Below, piece after piece: positions 26,150 through 36,594 of a DNA stretch of 36,607 bases; positions within the stretch are counted from its first letter, which is position 1, and every line of letters starts with the position of its first letter. The stretch comes from Spirochaetae bacterium HGW-Spirochaetae-5 (GTDB lineage Bacteria > Spirochaetota > UBA4802 > UBA5550). The notes under the pieces were generated by a model. It did no database searches and was not told the DNA's origin. It was given only the letters and a program-made list of their open reading frames with translations. The stretch is from the NCBI GenBank assembly GCA_002839285.1, contig PGXT01000026.1, forward strand, positions 1 to 36,607, written 5' to 3'. The position numbers and the translations under genes are program-made.

Positions 26150-28501
26150 ATGCCAGAAAGATATAACAAGATAAAACAGATAACAATTATCGGCGCCGGA
26201 TCCTGGGGTACGGCTATTGCGAAAGTTATAGCTGAAAATAACCCGGGAACTATTGTCCTCATGTGGTCTTACGAAAAATCGACTGCAAACTCTATCAATA
26301 TAAAAAATCTGAATAGTGAATTTCTACCCGGAATAAAGCTGCCTTACAATATTAAAGCAACCACTCATCTCCGCGAATCTTTAGTTAATACAGATGGTAT
26401 AATCATCGCGACGCCATCTAAGGTCACGCCAGATACAATACAGAAAATATCAAAATTTTTAAAAGATGAAGTACCTATTGCTTATCTGACTAAAGGTTTT
26501 TGTAAAATAAATAATGAAATACTGACAATATCACAAACGATATCCAGGCTTTTCCCGAAATACAGCGGCAGAATTGTCGGTATATCAGGACCGAGTCATG
26601 CAGAAGAGGTTGTCAGATACTACCACACTACACTAAGCGTAGCAGGTCACAACCTTAAAGACAGAAATTTCTTTTCAAAGCTTCTGAATTGTGATTACAT
26701 TCAATGCAGAGAAACAGAGGACATCATAGGGGTTGACCTTGGCGGCACATTGAAAAATCCCGCTGCAATTGCCGCAGGAATAATAAATATGCTGCCGAAA
26801 TGCGGCGACAATCTCGAGGGAGCCCTTATTGCAGAATCATTAAAGGAGATGATTAAACTGGGAAAATTCCTGGGTGCAGAAGTTGATACAATTATTGATA
26901 TATCCGGAACAGGCGACCTTGTTGCAACAGCATTGAGTGATCACAGCAGAAACAGAAGATTTGGCAAGGACATTGCAAAACAGATTCAGGAAAAGGGGAC
27001 TATTCTATCCTGGTCTGATAAATTCTACCTTCGTTTTAAGCCGGAATATGTTCTTGAAAAAATGAGTGAGAAGCTTCATTATCTCGCGGAGGGTGCCTAT
27101 GCAATTGAACCACTGATTGAACTAGCTGAAAAAAATAACATATCTATACCGGTTTACAGATCTCTTTATGAAGTTCTCCTTAATAAAAAAGAACCGTCTC
27201 TGCTGATCGAAACTATTAAAAATCCTGATAATTTTGCTGAAATTTATAATAACGCAAAAATTCATATAAAGGATAAGAAGAAAGGACTGGAAAAACTTAA
27301 AGGTAAAGCTTTTAAAAAACTGATATTAAACGGTATAATTTCAAAATTAGAAAGCAATTCAATATCTCCGGATTCTGAAAACGACATTATAAACAATCTG
27401 AAAAGCAATCTTATTTTAAGCAGAACTCAGAATATATTTCTGTTTAAAAATGAAGAAAAACTTATCACTGAGATAAAGCCAAATAACGCAAAAAAAACAT
27501 TAAAAAAAATAATCAAACTATATCTTACTGAAACAATTGATCATTACAGCCCGCTATATTATCATTTTTTTATTAAATTTCTAACAATTAAATACTTCTG
27601 GATGAAACTTACAGGGAACAGGAACAGAATAACTATCACCGGAGATTTTCACAATCTGCATAGTTTAAGAAACAGCGTTAATACTATTTACACTGCCAAG
27701 CATAAAAATATAAACGACTGCATCTATTATTCATACGGGATAAGTAAATTTATTCTTCCTGTGCCGAGGTTCTTTGTTCCTTCGGAGATTCTGACAAACA
27801 AATTCATGAAGTATCTGGTCCGTAAAAGCGGCGGATTTATTGTCCATCAATCAAAACTGAATAATACTTTATATCTTGAATGCATTATGGAATATCTGTC
27901 AATCCTTGCCGGACACGGTGTCCCTTTTTTATACTTCCCGGAGCTGCAGGGAACTGATTCACCACTTCTGGCACCAAATGATAAATTCTTTAAGATGTTA
28001 AACAGTGTAATGTTTAAGGAGACGACAGAAGTTGTGCTTATTCCATCTGAAATAACCTACACAAGCAGAATGGATGAAGCAGAGACAAAAGACCTGTTTA
28101 CTGAACCTGTTGGTATAAATTTTTCTACGCCTGTTTTTTTATCTGAATATACAAGGCAATCAAGTTCTGATATACCCATATCAGAACTTATACATAAAAT
28201 ATGGATTCTGGATGAAATAATTCTTCCTCATTATATAATTTGCGGAATACTGTATGAAAATGATTACACCGTTAAAGCTTCTAAATTGAAAAAGATGATT
28301 TATTCATATATTGCGGATAACAGAATTATCATAAATAAATCAGATAAAACCATTATGAATGAGGGATTAAAAGTTTTACAGAAAAATTCAATTATAGTAA
28401 GGAAAGATGATTTCTACATTGGCCTGAAAAATGATGTGATTAAAAAATTTGCTGATTTTATAAAAATTAAAGAAACTGTTAAATTAGACAATGCCGATTA
28501 G
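26150..28501 (+). CDS. gpsA: Glycerol-3-phosphate dehydrogenase GpsA fused to a PlsB-like acyltransferase domain lacking the HX4D motif
   Basis: A 783-residue fusion. Residues 1 to about 372 are GpsA, the NAD(P)-dependent dihydroxyacetone-phosphate reductase that makes sn-glycerol-3-phosphate. They include IIGAGSWGTA (13-22), GISGPSHAEEV, catalytic K202 in LKNPAAIAAG and SRNRRFG. After a linker, about 480-670 resembles GPAT/PlsB acyltransferases: GDFHNLHSLR (498-507) where motif I lies, GGFIVHQ (motif II), FPELQGTDSPLLAPN from F596 (motif III) and VVLIPSEITYT (motif IV). The normal HX4D catalytic pair is not there: the sixth position after H501 is Leu, and no nearby Asp fits. The C-terminal about 100 residues look like the helical tail of PlsB. 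The fusion would channel glycerol-3-phosphate to phospholipid synthesis, but the second domain may be inactive, altered or regulatory. Confidence 0.82.
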   Translation: MPERYNKIKQITIIGAGSWGTAIAKVIAENNPGTIVLMWSYEKSTANSINIKNLNSEFLPGIKLPYNIKATTHLRESLVNTDGIIIATPSKVTPDTIQKISKFLKDEVPIAYLTKGFCKINNEILTISQTISRLFPKYSGRIVGISGPSHAEEVVRYYHTTLSVAGHNLKDRNFFSKLLNCDYIQCRETEDIIGVDLGGTLKNPAAIAAGIINMLPKCGDNLEGALIAESLKEMIKLGKFLGAEVDTIIDISGTGDLVATALSDHSRNRRFGKDIAKQIQEKGTILSWSDKFYLRFKPEYVLEKMSEKLHYLAEGAYAIEPLIELAEKNNISIPVYRSLYEVLLNKKEPSLLIETIKNPDNFAEIYNNAKIHIKDKKKGLEKLKGKAFKKLILNGIISKLESNSISPDSENDIINNLKSNLILSRTQNIFLFKNEEKLITEIKPNNAKKTLKKIIKLYLTETIDHYSPLYYHFFIKFLTIKYFWMKLTGNRNRITITGDFHNLHSLRNSVNTIYTAKHKNINDCIYYSYGISKFILPVPRFFVPSEILTNKFMKYLVRKSGGFIVHQSKLNNTLYLECIMEYLSILAGHGVPFLYFPELQGTDSPLLAPNDKFFKMLNSVMFKETTEVVLIPSEITYTSRMDEAETKDLFTEPVGINFSTPVFLSEYTRQSSSDIPISELIHKIWILDEIILPHYIICGILYENDYTVKASKLKKMIYSYIADNRIIINKSDKTIMNEGLKVLQKNSIIVRKDDFYIGLKNDVIKKFADFIKIKETVKLDNAD

Positions 28502-30951: not shown

Positions 30952-31878
30952 ATGAAAAAAACAGGTGTAATTTTAAATCCCGGCGCAAAAAAATTCAGGA
31001 CAGGAAGAGATTCAATATCCTCTTATTCAAAATATAATTCTGATAAAGTTTTTGTTTCAGCTCCTCAAAGTGTAGAAGATCTTAAGGCTATAGCGGAACA
31101 ATATAAGAAAGAAAAAATAGATTATCTATGCATTGGCGGGGGGGATGGGACAATTCACCTTGTATTGAGTGAACTTGTAAATGTTTATCATCCGGAGCAG
31201 GTTCCGCCGGTACTTATACTTAAAGGGGGCACAATGAATAATATTGCCCGAACCGTAAAGAATAAAGGGGAGGGTTCCGGCATATTAAAACGGTTAATAA
31301 AAAAAATTGAAAAAAATGAAATAATCCAAACAAAAGAACGTTTAACAATCAAAGTGAATAATAAATTCTGCTTTCTTTTCGGTACAGGTTTCATAACAAA
31401 CTTCCTTGAAAAAGTTTATTCCGGTACTGAAAAAGGTTTTCTCCGGAACCTGCAGGTAGGCTTCATGGCAATAAAAGAAGTTTTTAAGAATGTTAAAAAC
31501 TGTGAAATTATAAAATTAACCGAACAGGCTGTATTTATTGATAATAAAAAAATACTAATTAATCCTGTTTCAGGAATTCTTGCAGGGACAGTTGAGCATA
31601 TCGGCATGGGTTTTTCCCCTTTGAAAGATGCAGTACGGGGTGACGGCACTTTTCAGATTATAATTCTCGGCCTGCCTGCGTCAAAAATAATGCTGAATTT
31701 AAATAAGCTTAGAACAGGTAAGAAAATAAAATCGCCTAAATATTCAAATCTCTCGGGAAAATCAATACATATAAAACATAAAGGTACTTTCACATATACC
31801 ATGGATGGAGAGATATATACGGCAGAAAATGAATTAAAAATTGAATCGGGACCTATCATAAGGCTTGTGAAAATATAA
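30952..31878 (+). CDS. Diacylglycerol kinase-family lipid kinase (DagK/YegS-like)
   Basis: A 308-residue ATP-dependent lipid kinase of the DAGK catalytic family. It opens with VILNPGAKK and has the nucleotide-binding GGGDGT at 62-67. The second glycine-rich segment ILKGGTMNNIAR corresponds to the usual G(T)xNDFAR-like motif with altered residues. A late YTMDGE (about residue 283) is the metal-site aspartate motif. Substrate could be diacylglycerol, sphingoid base or another lipid alcohol, and sequence alone does not decide. CGGAG lies about 9 nt before the ATG. The 3' end overlaps the converging IspH-UbiA gene by 23 nt, and no terminator fits between them. Confidence 0.87.
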   Translation: MKKTGVILNPGAKKFRTGRDSISSYSKYNSDKVFVSAPQSVEDLKAIAEQYKKEKIDYLCIGGGDGTIHLVLSELVNVYHPEQVPPVLILKGGTMNNIARTVKNKGEGSGILKRLIKKIEKNEIIQTKERLTIKVNNKFCFLFGTGFITNFLEKVYSGTEKGFLRNLQVGFMAIKEVFKNVKNCEIIKLTEQAVFIDNKKILINPVSGILAGTVEHIGMGFSPLKDAVRGDGTFQIIILGLPASKIMLNLNKLRTGKKIKSPKYSNLSGKSIHIKHKGTFTYTMDGEIYTAENELKIESGPIIRLVKI

Positions 31879-33586
31879 TTACGTAAAAGAATACTGCCAG
31901 CAGTATATAATTCAGATCAATTATAAATTCATACCTGAGAGAAATAAGATAATCGGTCTTCTGTATTTTTTTAAGCAAAAGCGTATAATATAGAGTGCAT
32001 AACAAGAGTATAATAAAAACAGATTTTCCTGCTGCTATAGAAATCCCTGCGAAAACCATTGAACTGATAATTATAATTAAATATGTCATATTGATAACAT
32101 TTCTCACACCAAGCCAGGTTGGGAGAGTGTCTCTGCCAAGAATTAAATCACCCTGAAATGCTGCAAAATCAATAATTAAATGACGGGTAAAAACGAATAC
32201 AAAAAAGAAGAGGGAGGATGATAGATATATTTCCCATGGAACTCCATTTCTGAAATAAGGAATTATTATTACAACCACAAGCCAGCCGAGTCCTGTTATA
32301 ATTTTAGTATTATAAAGCTTTTTTAAAAATCCTGAATTCGTCTTTTTTATGATTTTTTTAATTACAGAAGTGGAGTAAACTAAACCGAACAGGTACGGGA
32401 CAAGAATCAGAATAGCAAGTGATGGGAAAATTTTCATCGCAAGATATATTGATACAAAAAATAATATTATTGATGTCATAAGTAAATATGAACCGTATTT
32501 TTCATAAATCTGATATTTATAGGAGTTACTTTTAATCAGAAAACCTCTGTCCAGATAATTATTTACGGAATACATTACAAAAATATAAAATGAAGCAATT
32601 ACCCCATACCTTATATCCAGAGCTATCCCGGCGTAGAGTTGAGCCAGCAGAACCATAAATAACGAGGCAAGAGACGAAACAATATTGCTCCTGATCAGCA
32701 ATTCTATTAAGTGTTTAAATGATTTAACAATAAAATTGCTGCTTTCACTTTTTATAATATAAAGTTTCTCAAGTACATTATTAATAATCCAGCCTGGAGT
32801 AGAAGCCCCTGCTGTAACAAGTACATATTTGCTCTCCTTAAAATCATCTTTTTTTAATTCGGCATCTGTCTCTATATGAAATGTTTTTACACCGCTATCT
32901 ACACCAATCTTAACAAGACGGGATGTATTAGCCGAGTTTTTACCCCCCACAACCACAAGAGTATCAATACCTTTTTTTATCGCATTTTTTACGTCATCCT
33001 GTCTTAGCCTTGTTGAATCACAGATGGTATCAATTACATATACATTATTAATTTTCTTTGAAATTTCCGCTACAAGCTGATCAAATTGATCTCTTTCATG
33101 TGTTGTCTGGGAAACAACAATATATTTTTTTGCAGATTCAATGCCATCTATATCGGCAGCATCGGATACAATGTGCACTCCGGCCCGGGCATAACTTTTT
33201 AATCCGACTACCTCAGCATGGTTCCTGTCACCGATAATTATCGTATAGTATCCTTCACCTGAATATTTCTTTATAATAGATTGGACCCTGGCCACCCTGG
33301 AACAGGTAAGGTTAATTGTACGAAGGGCACTGCTCCGGATTCTTTTATTCTCATCAACTGGTATACCATGAGTTCGAATAGCTATCTGTCTGTTTTCAAG
33401 TGTATCAAGAGAATTTATTGTTATAAGACCTCTGTTTTTTAAAACCTCTATAGTCTGAGGATTATGAATTAAAGGTCCATACATATATATCTTTTCTTCC
33501 GAAGAATTCAGTTCATCTACAATTCTAAGCAGAGCTTTCCTTACGCCCATGCAGAATCCTGAATTTTTTGCCATTTCAATTTTCAT
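31856..33586 (-). CDS. ispH: IspH (HMBPP reductase) fused to a UbiA-like membrane prenyltransferase domain
   Basis: A 576-residue fusion. Residues 1 to about 280 are IspH, the [4Fe-4S] enzyme that makes IPP and DMAPP in the last MEP-pathway step. Cluster cysteines are C12, C95 and C189. Active-site H41, H73, H123, E125, T161/T162, S218, N220 and S262 are all in place. From about 300 there are eight or so membrane helices with UbiA-like motifs: NNYLDRGFL at 342-350 where NDxxDxxxD is expected, and FQGDLILGRDTLPTWLG from 477 where a DxxGDxxxGxxTLP motif is expected. Both Asp-rich motifs are partly degenerate, so prenyl transfer is likely but not assured. The start overlaps gspN by 11 nt. IspH is normally a free protein. 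Confidence 0.88.
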   Translation of the reverse strand: MKIEMAKNSGFCMGVRKALLRIVDELNSSEEKIYMYGPLIHNPQTIEVLKNRGLITINSLDTLENRQIAIRTHGIPVDENKRIRSSALRTINLTCSRVARVQSIIKKYSGEGYYTIIIGDRNHAEVVGLKSYARAGVHIVSDAADIDGIESAKKYIVVSQTTHERDQFDQLVAEISKKINNVYVIDTICDSTRLRQDDVKNAIKKGIDTLVVVGGKNSANTSRLVKIGVDSGVKTFHIETDAELKKDDFKESKYVLVTAGASTPGWIINNVLEKLYIIKSESSNFIVKSFKHLIELLIRSNIVSSLASLFMVLLAQLYAGIALDIRYGVIASFYIFVMYSVNNYLDRGFLIKSNSYKYQIYEKYGSYLLMTSIILFFVSIYLAMKIFPSLAILILVPYLFGLVYSTSVIKKIIKKTNSGFLKKLYNTKIITGLGWLVVVIIIPYFRNGVPWEIYLSSSLFFFVFVFTRHLIIDFAAFQGDLILGRDTLPTWLGVRNVINMTYLIIIISSMVFAGISIAAGKSVFIILLLCTLYYTLLLKKIQKTDYLISLRYEFIIDLNYILLAVFFYVIIFSQAL

Positions 33587-34457
33587 TTTTATCAGCCCGG
33601 TTTAACGCAAGCTCGGGTCTTCCTAGCGTGCCTTTGATTTTTAAAGTTAAAACATTATCTTTAATATAAGCACCCAGAAGATCTCTGTATTGATCAATTA
33701 TTGATGATTCAGAATCAAGATTAACTGTTATATTAAGTTTTGAATTATTAGTAATATTTGATAACTCTATTGTGCCTGAAATATCACATGAAAGATCATT
33801 TCCTGATAATTTGAAAACATTAAGACTGATAGTCCCATTTGTAATTTTTGAATCTAAATTACCGCTTTGAATATTTATTGATTCAATTTTTAAATTCATC
33901 GGCCCCATAGGTCCGGGAATACTCAAACTATTAATTTTAATAACTGAATCACTTAATATTATTTTAACAGATCCCTGCTGAGGCAAACCGCTCTGCCTGT
34001 CAAGAGTCAAATCAATATTACCGTTTATATTAATTAATGCTTCGATTTCTTTAGTTATGTATTTTAAAGAATCAAACTGAAAATCAGATTTTAATCTGTT
34101 TTTCAAAAATAATGTTACCGGGTTAAGAGCGATGTTAAGTATTGCATTTTTACATGATAATTCATTGCTGTTGTTAAATACAATATTCAGATTATCAATG
34201 TATGTTTCGCCAAAAATACTGAAATCAAAACCGGGAATATCTATAGATCTGAATGTTTTACCTTCATATTCATAAATCTTTTTTTTGATAAGAAAATCAT
34301 AAGGAAAAGTCAGAATTAAAAAAACAATAAAAAACAGAATAGAAAGTAAAAAATATTTTCCTGAATGGGGGAGATTGTAAATAGTTTTAAAATGCTCCTT
34401 AATCCCGGAAGGTAGTAATTTAATTGATGACACTATAGATTTAATATTTATTTTCAT
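33576..34457 (-). CDS. gspN: Type II secretion system protein GspN
   Basis: A 293-residue inner-membrane protein. A cytosolic N-terminus is followed by one membrane segment at about 35-55 and a large periplasmic beta-rich domain. The domain contains IDIPGFDFSIFGETYIDNLN, NPVTLFLKNR, and repeated 'inner leaflet' strands such as GSVKIILSDSVIKINSL and GTIELSNITNNSKLNITVN, followed by TLKIKGTLGRPEL near the end. This is the GspN architecture seen in spirochaete and deltaproteobacterial T2SS operons. It follows gspM by 6 nt and overlaps the start of the IspH-UbiA gene by 11 nt. Confidence 0.8.
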   Translation of the reverse strand: MKINIKSIVSSIKLLPSGIKEHFKTIYNLPHSGKYFLLSILFFIVFLILTFPYDFLIKKKIYEYEGKTFRSIDIPGFDFSIFGETYIDNLNIVFNNSNELSCKNAILNIALNPVTLFLKNRLKSDFQFDSLKYITKEIEALININGNIDLTLDRQSGLPQQGSVKIILSDSVIKINSLSIPGPMGPMNLKIESINIQSGNLDSKITNGTISLNVFKLSGNDLSCDISGTIELSNITNNSKLNITVNLDSESSIIDQYRDLLGAYIKDNVLTLKIKGTLGRPELALNRADKNEN

Positions 34458-34463
34458 TTATCT

Positions 34464-34979
34464 CTATCTCTTGCTTAAACTGACGATTGTTATCACAGAA
34501 TCATATCTGCTTCTCTCTTTAATACCGGAATAAATAACCAGACTCTCAATTTTCAGCGGCACATTTGAACGCTCAATACGGTTAATCATTTCCAGAAGAG
34601 CTTTAATTGGTACACCTTCAAATTTAACTTCTGTGGTAATTTTCTGAATTTCATTCTGGATAATCCCCGGCTTTTCATTCAGGTATACTTTATTACTGCT
34701 GATATTAAGGCTTGAAGCTATCCCGTCAATCATTGAGCCTATTCCGCTGCTTTGAGAAGCGACTGCATTAAGTTTACTTTTGTCAGACACTATCTCTCTG
34801 TATTCAGCATAAATCTCATCCAGTTTTCCTATCTTCAATCTGTTTCTATTATAGATATCATCCGAATTTTTTTTAAATTCTACTATAGGGGATATAATAA
34901 AGTAATAACAAATTCCTGTTACAAGAATACCGGCAAGAATGAATAACAGTTTTTTCTCTCTATCGTTAAGAATAATCAT
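34464..34979 (-). CDS. gspM: Type II secretion system protein GspM-like
   Basis: A 171-residue bitopic inner-membrane protein. A short cytosolic N-terminus (NDREKK) precedes one membrane helix at about 10-31, then a coiled stretch (about 35-70) and a small ferredoxin-like periplasmic domain. VEFKK, LNISSNKVYLNE and TEVKFEGVPIKALLEMINRI fit GspM, which pairs with GspL on the T2SS assembly platform. The identity rests on the neighbours as well as the fold. GAGAG precedes the ATG. It lies 10 nt from gspL and 6 nt from gspN. Confidence 0.75.
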   Translation of the reverse strand: MIILNDREKKLLFILAGILVTGICYYFIISPIVEFKKNSDDIYNRNRLKIGKLDEIYAEYREIVSDKSKLNAVASQSSGIGSMIDGIASSLNISSNKVYLNEKPGIIQNEIQKITTEVKFEGVPIKALLEMINRIERSNVPLKIESLVIYSGIKERSRYDSVITIVSLSKR

Positions 34980-34989
34980 AATTTCACTC

Positions 34990-36594
34990 TCAAATCTTCT
35001 GCTTTATAGTTAGTGTAAAAAGACTCCGGCTGCTGCTTGTGTCCCTGATATTTACTGTAACACTTTCAAATTTATCAGTGCTTAAAAGATTTTTTTTCAA
35101 CTCTTCAAGATCTCCAGATAATCTGGTTTCACCTTCAATAGTCATGCTTTTGCCGTCATAGGTTATTTTTTTAACATCAAAACCTTCAGCATCATTTAAA
35201 CTCTTCACTACAATATCAAGTGCAGGTATAAACCGGTTCTGATCTCCCAGCATTTCATTAAGTACAGAATATTCTTTCTTTTCGTTTGCCAGAATACTCA
35301 TTGCTTCCTTAATCGGATCTTTTGGAACACTTTGTGTATTGAAATACCTTTTAAATTTCTGCTGCATTACTGTTTCTGTATAATTATTACTTTTAACTAC
35401 AAAGTAGACTGTACTGGAAAAATTAATTATCAAAAACAAAACCGATAAGACTGCAAACACAACAGGAAGATAAAACCTGTTTAGTGCCCCATGAGCTGAT
35501 ACCGGAGAGAAATCACCCTTAAGAAAATTTATCGATGTTGTGCGGTTATTCATATAAACAAGCAGATTCCCGAGACAGACTGAAAATCTGCTTTTCAGAT
35601 TTATATCATTATATCCGTTTAAAAAGGGCATAAAAACTACAGGCAATCCCGACTCATCGCCAAGCACTCTTGATATCCCTTTAATGTTTGAACCGCCGCC
35701 TGTAATAATAATTCTGCTGAAAATAGAATAATCAGTATGCCCACCGCTGGCTTTTATGGTAAAAGCGATACTATCGAGTATATCTGAAACCAGTCTCTCC
35801 GCTTCATTAAAAATTATCTTCAATTTAGGTTTAGTTATATTTAATTTTTTATAATTTTCATTTTTCAGATTTGAATCAAATGATGTCAAATCCAGATCAA
35901 GGGACACAAATATTTTTTCTGCTTCAGCAAGAGTGATGCTGAAAACTTCAGCAATTTTCTCTATCAGTAGTCCCATACCGAAGGAGATCCCTCTCGTATA
36001 AATTAATTCACTGTTTTTAACAAGATTAACTACTGTTTTAGTATAACCTATATCTATCTGTAAAACCGTTTCATTATTGACCGAATTGAAATACTCATAA
36101 CACCTTAATAATGAATTCGATTCTATACCGCAAAAAACAGGATTGAGATTAAATTTTTTTAGCACTTCGAGAATACCTGTAAGATATTCCTTATTTACAG
36201 CTGCAAGAATGACACTTCTGCCTTCAGATTCTTCATCAGGTATTATCTGAAAATCCAGTGTAACCATTTCAATTGGATATGGGATATTCTCCTCTGCTTC
36301 GAATGGTATGGCCGTGGCAATTTTATTTAAATCGCTGAAAGGGAATGTTATATTACGCAATAACAGACGTTCAGCCGGGATTGACATTACAATCTTAAAG
36401 TCATCCAGACTCTCCTTTTCAAGGATGGCATGAAGCGCATTTTCTATCGCAGCTGTATAATCCTGCTTTAGTAAATCCGGATCTATAAATTCAAGACATG
36501 TGGAAATAAGTTCAAATTTTTTGAAACCTCTCCTGGCTTTGATAAGCTTAATAGAGGTTGCTCCAATATCTATTGAGGCAATATTATCAAACAA
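34990..36594 (-). CDS. gspL: Type II secretion system protein GspL (PilM-like ATPase fold plus periplasmic domain)
   Basis: A 534-residue assembly-platform protein. The N-terminal about 350 residues have the actin-like (ASKHA) fold of PilM/GspL: DIGATSIKLIKA at 9-20, then QIDIGYTKTVVNL (179-191) and ITGGGSNIKG (297-306). A membrane helix lies at about 374-400, and the periplasmic C-terminus is a PilN-like ferredoxin domain. GspL recruits the secretion ATPase GspE through its cytosolic part. The start codon is a TTG, at 36594, with CAGGAG seven bases upstream, near the right edge of the window. Earlier operon genes probably lie outside. Confidence 0.87.
   Translation of the reverse strand: MFDNIASIDIGATSIKLIKARRGFKKFELISTCLEFIDPDLLKQDYTAAIENALHAILEKESLDDFKIVMSIPAERLLLRNITFPFSDLNKIATAIPFEAEENIPYPIEMVTLDFQIIPDEESEGRSVILAAVNKEYLTGILEVLKKFNLNPVFCGIESNSLLRCYEYFNSVNNETVLQIDIGYTKTVVNLVKNSELIYTRGISFGMGLLIEKIAEVFSITLAEAEKIFVSLDLDLTSFDSNLKNENYKKLNITKPKLKIIFNEAERLVSDILDSIAFTIKASGGHTDYSIFSRIIITGGGSNIKGISRVLGDESGLPVVFMPFLNGYNDINLKSRFSVCLGNLLVYMNNRTTSINFLKGDFSPVSAHGALNRFYLPVVFAVLSVLFLIINFSSTVYFVVKSNNYTETVMQQKFKRYFNTQSVPKDPIKEAMSILANEKKEYSVLNEMLGDQNRFIPALDIVVKSLNDAEGFDVKKITYDGKSMTIEGETRLSGDLEELKKNLLSTDKFESVTVNIRDTSSSRSLFTLTIKQKI

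Follow-up and report, generated by a model that had tools for sequence, protein, structure and literature searches.

An IspH protein fused to a UbiA-fold membrane domain with eroded aspartate motifs in Spirochaetota, including Brachyspira

IspH catalyzes the last step of the MEP pathway, the conversion of HMBPP into IPP and DMAPP, and is an essential enzyme and an antibiotic target in most bacteria. Little is known about how this step is regulated or linked to the membrane. In a draft genome of Spirochaetae bacterium HGW-Spirochaetae-5, a single reading frame in the 36,607 nucleotides of contig PGXT01000026.1 analyzed here (hereafter, the window) joins an IspH sequence to a membrane domain resembling the UbiA prenyltransferases, which raises the question of whether this protein is a genuine fusion and, if so, what such a domain may do when attached to IspH. 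The original prediction was that the fusion could couple precursor supply to a prenyl transfer step in the membrane.

The fusion gene is located on the minus strand of the window at 31856–33586, from an ATG at 33586 to a stop codon at 31858–31856, and encodes a protein of 576 amino acids; the coordinates and the length of the frame were thus correctly predicted. The plus strand of this region is rich in stop codons. Since the window belongs to a draft genome consisting of 309 contigs, a frameshift, a misassembly or an annotation artefact joining two genes might be suspected. However, the same join, with the linker at a constant position and without any stop codon, was found in dozens of independent genomes belonging to several families, at loci with G+C contents ranging from 26 to 65%, and about 30 of the 59 relatives carry a full-length, colinear fusion without internal stops, showing 42–62% identity. 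A frameshift or a misassembly of two genes, which would have undermined the original prediction, is ruled out by this recurrence, and an artefact of any kind is hardly credible: the protein is a true fusion of IspH with a UbiA-fold domain and not a chimera. In one draft genome of family f34 (G201), the fusion gene is split into two frames of 132 and 471 amino acids (L106:5880–7726, minus strand).

The IspH (LytB) domain corresponds to residues 1–280 (32747–33586, minus strand). It matches the Pfam profile LYTB (PF02401) over residues 3–275 with an E-value of 3e-79 (266.5 bits, cut-off 24.5) and TIGR00216 with 263.5 bits (cut-off 187.85), and this part of the AlphaFold2 model matches the E. coli IspH structure (9ql0/3f7t) with a Z-score of 29.3 and an rmsd of 1.7. 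The three cysteine residues of the Fe-S cluster, C12 (33551–33553), C95 (33302–33304), and C189 (33020–33022), all encoded on the minus strand, are invariant in an alignment of 31 fusions, as are most of the substrate-contacting residues. In the window protein, the latter are all present (H41, H73, H123, E125, T161/T162, S218, N220, and S262), and the usual SSN motif of IspH reads SAN. Both the sequence and the profiles therefore bear out the proposal that this half is a complete IspH. Neither the window's genome (G000) nor the Brachyspira genomes checked contain any IspH gene besides the fused one, while a few relatives carry a second IspH gene. Because the active-site residues are intact and no other copy is present, we infer that the fusion converts HMBPP into IPP and DMAPP. 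All 10 genomes searched for GcpE/IspG have it, and 8 of 10 have DXR; the lack of a DXR match in the draft genome of the window itself most likely reflects a gap.

The C-terminal part of the protein, from about residue 292 to residue 576 (31859–32713, minus strand), is predicted to adopt the UbiA fold, with nine helices. The Pfam profile UbiA (PF01040) matches residues 368–542 of the window protein with an E-value of 2e-4 and 21.2 bits, below the cut-off of 34.2; it also matches the domains of 18 of the 22 relatives (best E-value 9e-10), and the fusion of G020 exceeds the cut-off with 38.8 bits. The whole window protein was modelled with AlphaFold2 using a 31-sequence alignment (pLDDT 88.7, pTM 0.78). 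Residues 296–575, approximately, of this model match ApUbiA (4od4) with a Z-score of 18.4 and an rmsd of 3.2 over 250 aligned residues, AfUbiA (4tq4) with a Z-score of 16.7, and UBIAD1 (8djk) with a Z-score of 14.9, and when the Brachyspira domain was modelled alone (pLDDT 87.3), ApUbiA again came out on top (Z-score 17.5), followed by AfUbiA. Polyprenyl synthases also match these domain models, with Z-scores of 12–15 (12.7–14.7 in the case of the window model), and since the best UbiA entries outrank them, the fold was taken to be that of UbiA. A profile-profile comparison with the canonical UbiAs of related genomes was weak, aligning just 44 columns with a probability of 35%, and the claim of homology therefore rests on the Pfam matches of the relatives together with the fold. 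A PDB sequence search with the C-terminal domain alone gave no significant match. The alternative considered at the outset, that the membrane domain might be unrelated to UbiA, was seen neither in the profile searches, including those on the other IspH fusions, nor in the fold searches, and a chance hydrophobic extension of IspH is ruled out by the UbiA fold and by the conservation of residues described below. Basic residues are clustered in the loops on the N-terminal, IspH-bearing side (before TM1, between TM2 and TM3, and between TM4 and TM5). With this distribution of charges, the motif loops would face the same side of the membrane as IspH, presumably the cytoplasmic one, as is also consistent with the established topology of UbiA.

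The active site of AfUbiA includes R22, N68, D72, D76, Y139, S140, K146, D198, and D202 (PMC4106721). Based on a joint alignment of the fusions with canonical UbiAs from related genomes, N68 corresponds to N342 in the window protein, D72 to D346, D76 to L350, Y139 to Y404, S140 to S405, D198 to A476, and D202 to D480. R22 and K146 probably correspond to R299 and K410, these less certain assignments applying to the window's order only. Residues were counted over 58 fusion sequences, which are related and in some cases near-identical, and hence not independent. In the degenerate motif I (N342-N-Y-L-D346-x-x-x-L350; 32537–32563, minus strand), the asparagine is present in 56 of these 58 sequences, position 346 is occupied by D, E, N, L, M, T, P or I, and position 350 by a hydrophobic residue (Leu, Ile, Met or Phe), so that the canonical NxxxDxxxD pattern is not found. 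As position 346 varies, D346 is ruled out as an obligate catalytic residue of the family. In the degenerate motif II (D473-x-x-A476-x-x-x-D480-x-x-x-G484; 32135–32170, minus strand), the canonical DxxxD pattern is likewise absent: its first aspartate is replaced by A476, at which position an acid occurs only in family f34, while D480 is kept in all 58 fusions and an acid is present at position 473 in 52. The degenerate aspartate motifs described in the original prediction, NNYLD with D346 and FQGD with D480, were therefore correctly recognized and placed. The Y404-S405 pair (32372–32377, minus strand) includes a tyrosine found in 57 of the fusions. R468 (32183–32185, minus strand), in the helix preceding motif II, is specific to the family: 57 fusions carry an arginine at this position and the other a lysine, and the aligned canonical UbiAs do not have an arginine there. 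Within the domain, conservation is highest at residues of the pocket type, beyond mere hydrophobicity. Unfused UbiA-like relatives with intact motifs also exist (L108 and L110); that at L108:1–5000 (G088), the nearest intact-motif cousin seen, lies near a gene for a geranylgeranyl-reductase-like FAD enzyme.

The loss of two canonical acids and the variability of a third argue against canonical prenyltransferase chemistry, and the domain is probably not a canonical Mg-dependent prenyltransferase. In EcMenA, function is lost upon mutating the equivalents of D72 or D198 (PMC4106721); judging from its sequences, the fusion family tolerates the loss of acids required in that enzyme. The window copy keeps D346, D473, and D480, and may thus still bind Mg. 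In addition, UbiA-type terpene synthases are active with a motif I of the form NxxxG/AxxxD, from which the central aspartate is missing (PMC9835599), so that motif drift is no proof of inactivity.

A search with the C-terminal domain alone detected it in 72 of the 296 genomes sampled from across Spirochaetota. In the window's class, 38 of 46 genomes match the fusion profile, mostly at full length, and the fusion is also present in Brachyspira and several other families. The genus in question (g34, about 30 species sampled) was assigned to Brachyspira by means of a published cpn60 primer (PMC7887428), which matched all 11 of the g34 genomes tried, and none of five others, with at most two mismatches. 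The named public records containing the fusion are Spirochaetota MAGs, and no full-length fusion was found in the plasmid collection searched. Between close pairs, the dN/dS ratios amount to 0.07–0.20 in the C-terminal half vs. 0.03–0.10 in the IspH half: the C-terminal domain is under purifying selection. On the tree of the IspH domains, the fused label requires about 4 state changes, compared with 9.9 when the labels are shuffled. The unfused proteins of family f3 (G021 and G030) branch, with strong support, beside the window's order, and the unfused CAMQVF is placed among the Brachyspira-family fusions; these positions suggest that the UbiA-fold domain was probably lost in some lineages. 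The positions of f34 and f31, which are long-branched, are unsure. Where IspH is unfused, no remnants of the domain were found beside its gene. The fact that IspH occurs without the domain in family f3 and CAMQVF means that the domain is not universally required.

Three genes on the minus strand precede the fusion gene in the window: a GspN-like gene of the type II secretion system (33576–34457; TIGR04411, 80.1 bits, cut-off 50), which overlaps the start of the fusion by 11 nt, a GspM-like gene (34464–34979; Pfam T2SSM, 32.7 bits, cut-off 27.8), and a PilM/GspL-like gene (34990–36594; Pfam PilM_2, 108.2 bits, cut-off 27). The order GspL-GspM-GspN-fusion, of which the upstream block spans 33576–36594 here, is kept across the class, the fusion gene overlapping GspN or lying within about 36 nt of it. 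The neighbors differ in Brachyspira and the other families, and this linkage may be an operon of convenience. A convergent YegS/diacylglycerol-kinase-like gene (30952–31878) overlaps the 3' end of the fusion gene by 23 nt, and a gene of this kind is also found beside the fusions of some relatives. Elsewhere in the window (26150–28501), a 783-amino-acid frame putatively combines, as judged by eye, a GpsA-like glycerol-3-phosphate dehydrogenase with a PlsB-like acyltransferase.

Most members of the window's order carry a separate canonical UbiA, and no other UbiA was found in the Brachyspira genomes searched. Quinone biosynthesis is an unlikely role for the fused domain, since an intact protein of the UbiA/MqnP/MenA type is encoded separately in most of the order, and Brachyspira has none. 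Some other fusions were noticed. A fusion of an ABC-transporter permease (about 250 amino acids) with an MqnP-type UbiA adjoins a flavin prenyltransferase-like gene (G000:C294:62910–64436, L031; L117:1447–3087, minus strand); it is full length in G010, G014, and G016, and about 36 internal residues are missing, in frame, from the G000 copy. A 544-amino-acid frame consisting of an IspE-like GHMP kinase and a second, divergent IspH was identified in G015 (L034:3714–5348, plus strand; G015:C76), a genome which also has the IspH-UbiA fusion; the contig involved could be a contaminant.

What might the domain do? The reading we favor, tentatively and with somewhat less than even confidence, is that it serves as a membrane anchor and a prenyl-lipid-binding module coupled to IspH, without canonical Mg-dependent transfer. 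The UbiA-fold domain would keep the cell's sole IspH on the cytoplasmic side of the inner membrane, and its pocket would bind a prenyl diphosphate or phosphate via the conserved equivalents of N68, Y139, and D202, and, in the window's order, via the probable equivalents of R22 and K146, which are also kept. The conserved pocket residues make binding of this kind probable, and the domain would anchor the enzyme, sense the product or hand it over. In a more specific and rather doubtful version of the sensing role, suggested by analogy with UBIAD1 and HMG CoA reductase, a pseudo-transferase might sense the prenyl (di)phosphates in the membrane and set the activity of IspH, forming a bacterial, one-polypeptide counterpart of that pair.

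A bifunctional enzyme, in which IPP and DMAPP would be supplied locally and a UbiA domain with altered motifs would prenylate some membrane acceptor, is a serious but less probable possibility. The UbiA fold and the near-invariance of N342, Y404, and D480 are consistent with it, a polyprenyl synthetase gene lies directly upstream of the fusion, on the same strand, in one f34 genome (L105), and a channelling proposal has been published (Rao et al., 2015; PMC4746011). However, the equivalents of D76 and D198 are lost and that of D72 is variable, whereas EcMenA needs the D72 and D198 equivalents, and Brachyspira conserves the domain despite strongly degenerate motifs. Of the original prediction, the fusion and the UbiA fold are supported; a coupling of precursor supply to prenyl transfer by canonical chemistry is made less likely by the lost and variable acids. 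The erosion of the aspartate motifs, the faster evolution of the C-terminal half, and the probable loss of the domain in some relatives would also suit a pure membrane anchor of UbiA descent, with neither ligand nor chemistry; since pocket-type residues are the most conserved positions and an anchor has no need of N342, Y404, D480, and R468, this seems unlikely. Other isoprenoid chemistry, such as intramembrane terpene cyclisation or prenyl diphosphate hydrolysis, is brought to mind by the UbiA-type terpene synthases lacking the central aspartate of motif I (PMC9835599), but these enzymes keep a QDxxDxxxD motif II, the middle aspartate of which is lost in the fusions, and no terpene-type neighboring genes were recognized in the class, which makes it very improbable.

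In a whole spirochaete class and in the genus Brachyspira, IspH is thus fixed to a UbiA-fold domain. Since Brachyspira has no other UbiA, the role of the domain cannot be masked there by a quinone enzyme, so that the question raised in 2015 can be put to a direct test, for which natural controls exist in the relatives without the domain and in the graded loss of the motifs. If the sensing role were true, spirochaetes, including Brachyspira, would have a built-in feedback in the MEP pathway.

The IspH-UbiA architecture itself was published in 2015: Rao et al. described 47 hybrid sequences, each from a sulfate reducer and with a UbiA domain containing two DxxxD repeats, and proposed a "Rosetta stone" channelling which amounts to the same precursor-supply idea as the original prediction (PMC4746011). 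Their text names no spirochaete, and a literature search combining UbiA, IspH, and Spirochaetes yielded no paper, while the hybrids turned up in a single further paper of the literature searched, as a citation; the spirochaete branch, with its eroded motifs and including Brachyspira, appears to be new to the literature. Both kinds of proteins have an N-terminal IspH and a C-terminal UbiA-like domain with nine helices, and a separate quinone-type UbiA is present elsewhere in the sulfate reducers (Rao et al., 2015) as in most of the window's order. By contrast with the published description of the hybrids, the acids of motifs I and II are lost or variable in the spirochaetes.

With the UbiA superfamily in general (AfUbiA, ApUbiA, MenA, MqnP, and UBIAD1), the fusions share the predicted nine-helix fold and the near-invariant asparagine of motif I, tyrosine of helix 4, and last aspartate of motif II; unlike the canonical members, they have lost the equivalents of D76 and D198, vary at that of D72, and carry the family-specific R468. 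The IspH-RPS1 fusions of clostridia and Fusobacterium also consist of IspH with an additional C-terminal module and likewise occur mostly in anaerobes, but their module is the ribosomal protein S1, which is soluble and unrelated to UbiA. Lastly, UBIAD1 regulates HMG CoA reductase, providing a case in which a UbiA protein controls an isoprenoid enzyme (PMC4374513). As in the spirochaete fusion, a UbiA-fold protein is physically tied to an enzyme of isoprenoid supply; this is an analogy in the way of working only, since the UBIAD1 system is eukaryotic, belongs to the mevalonate pathway, and involves separate proteins and regulated degradation.
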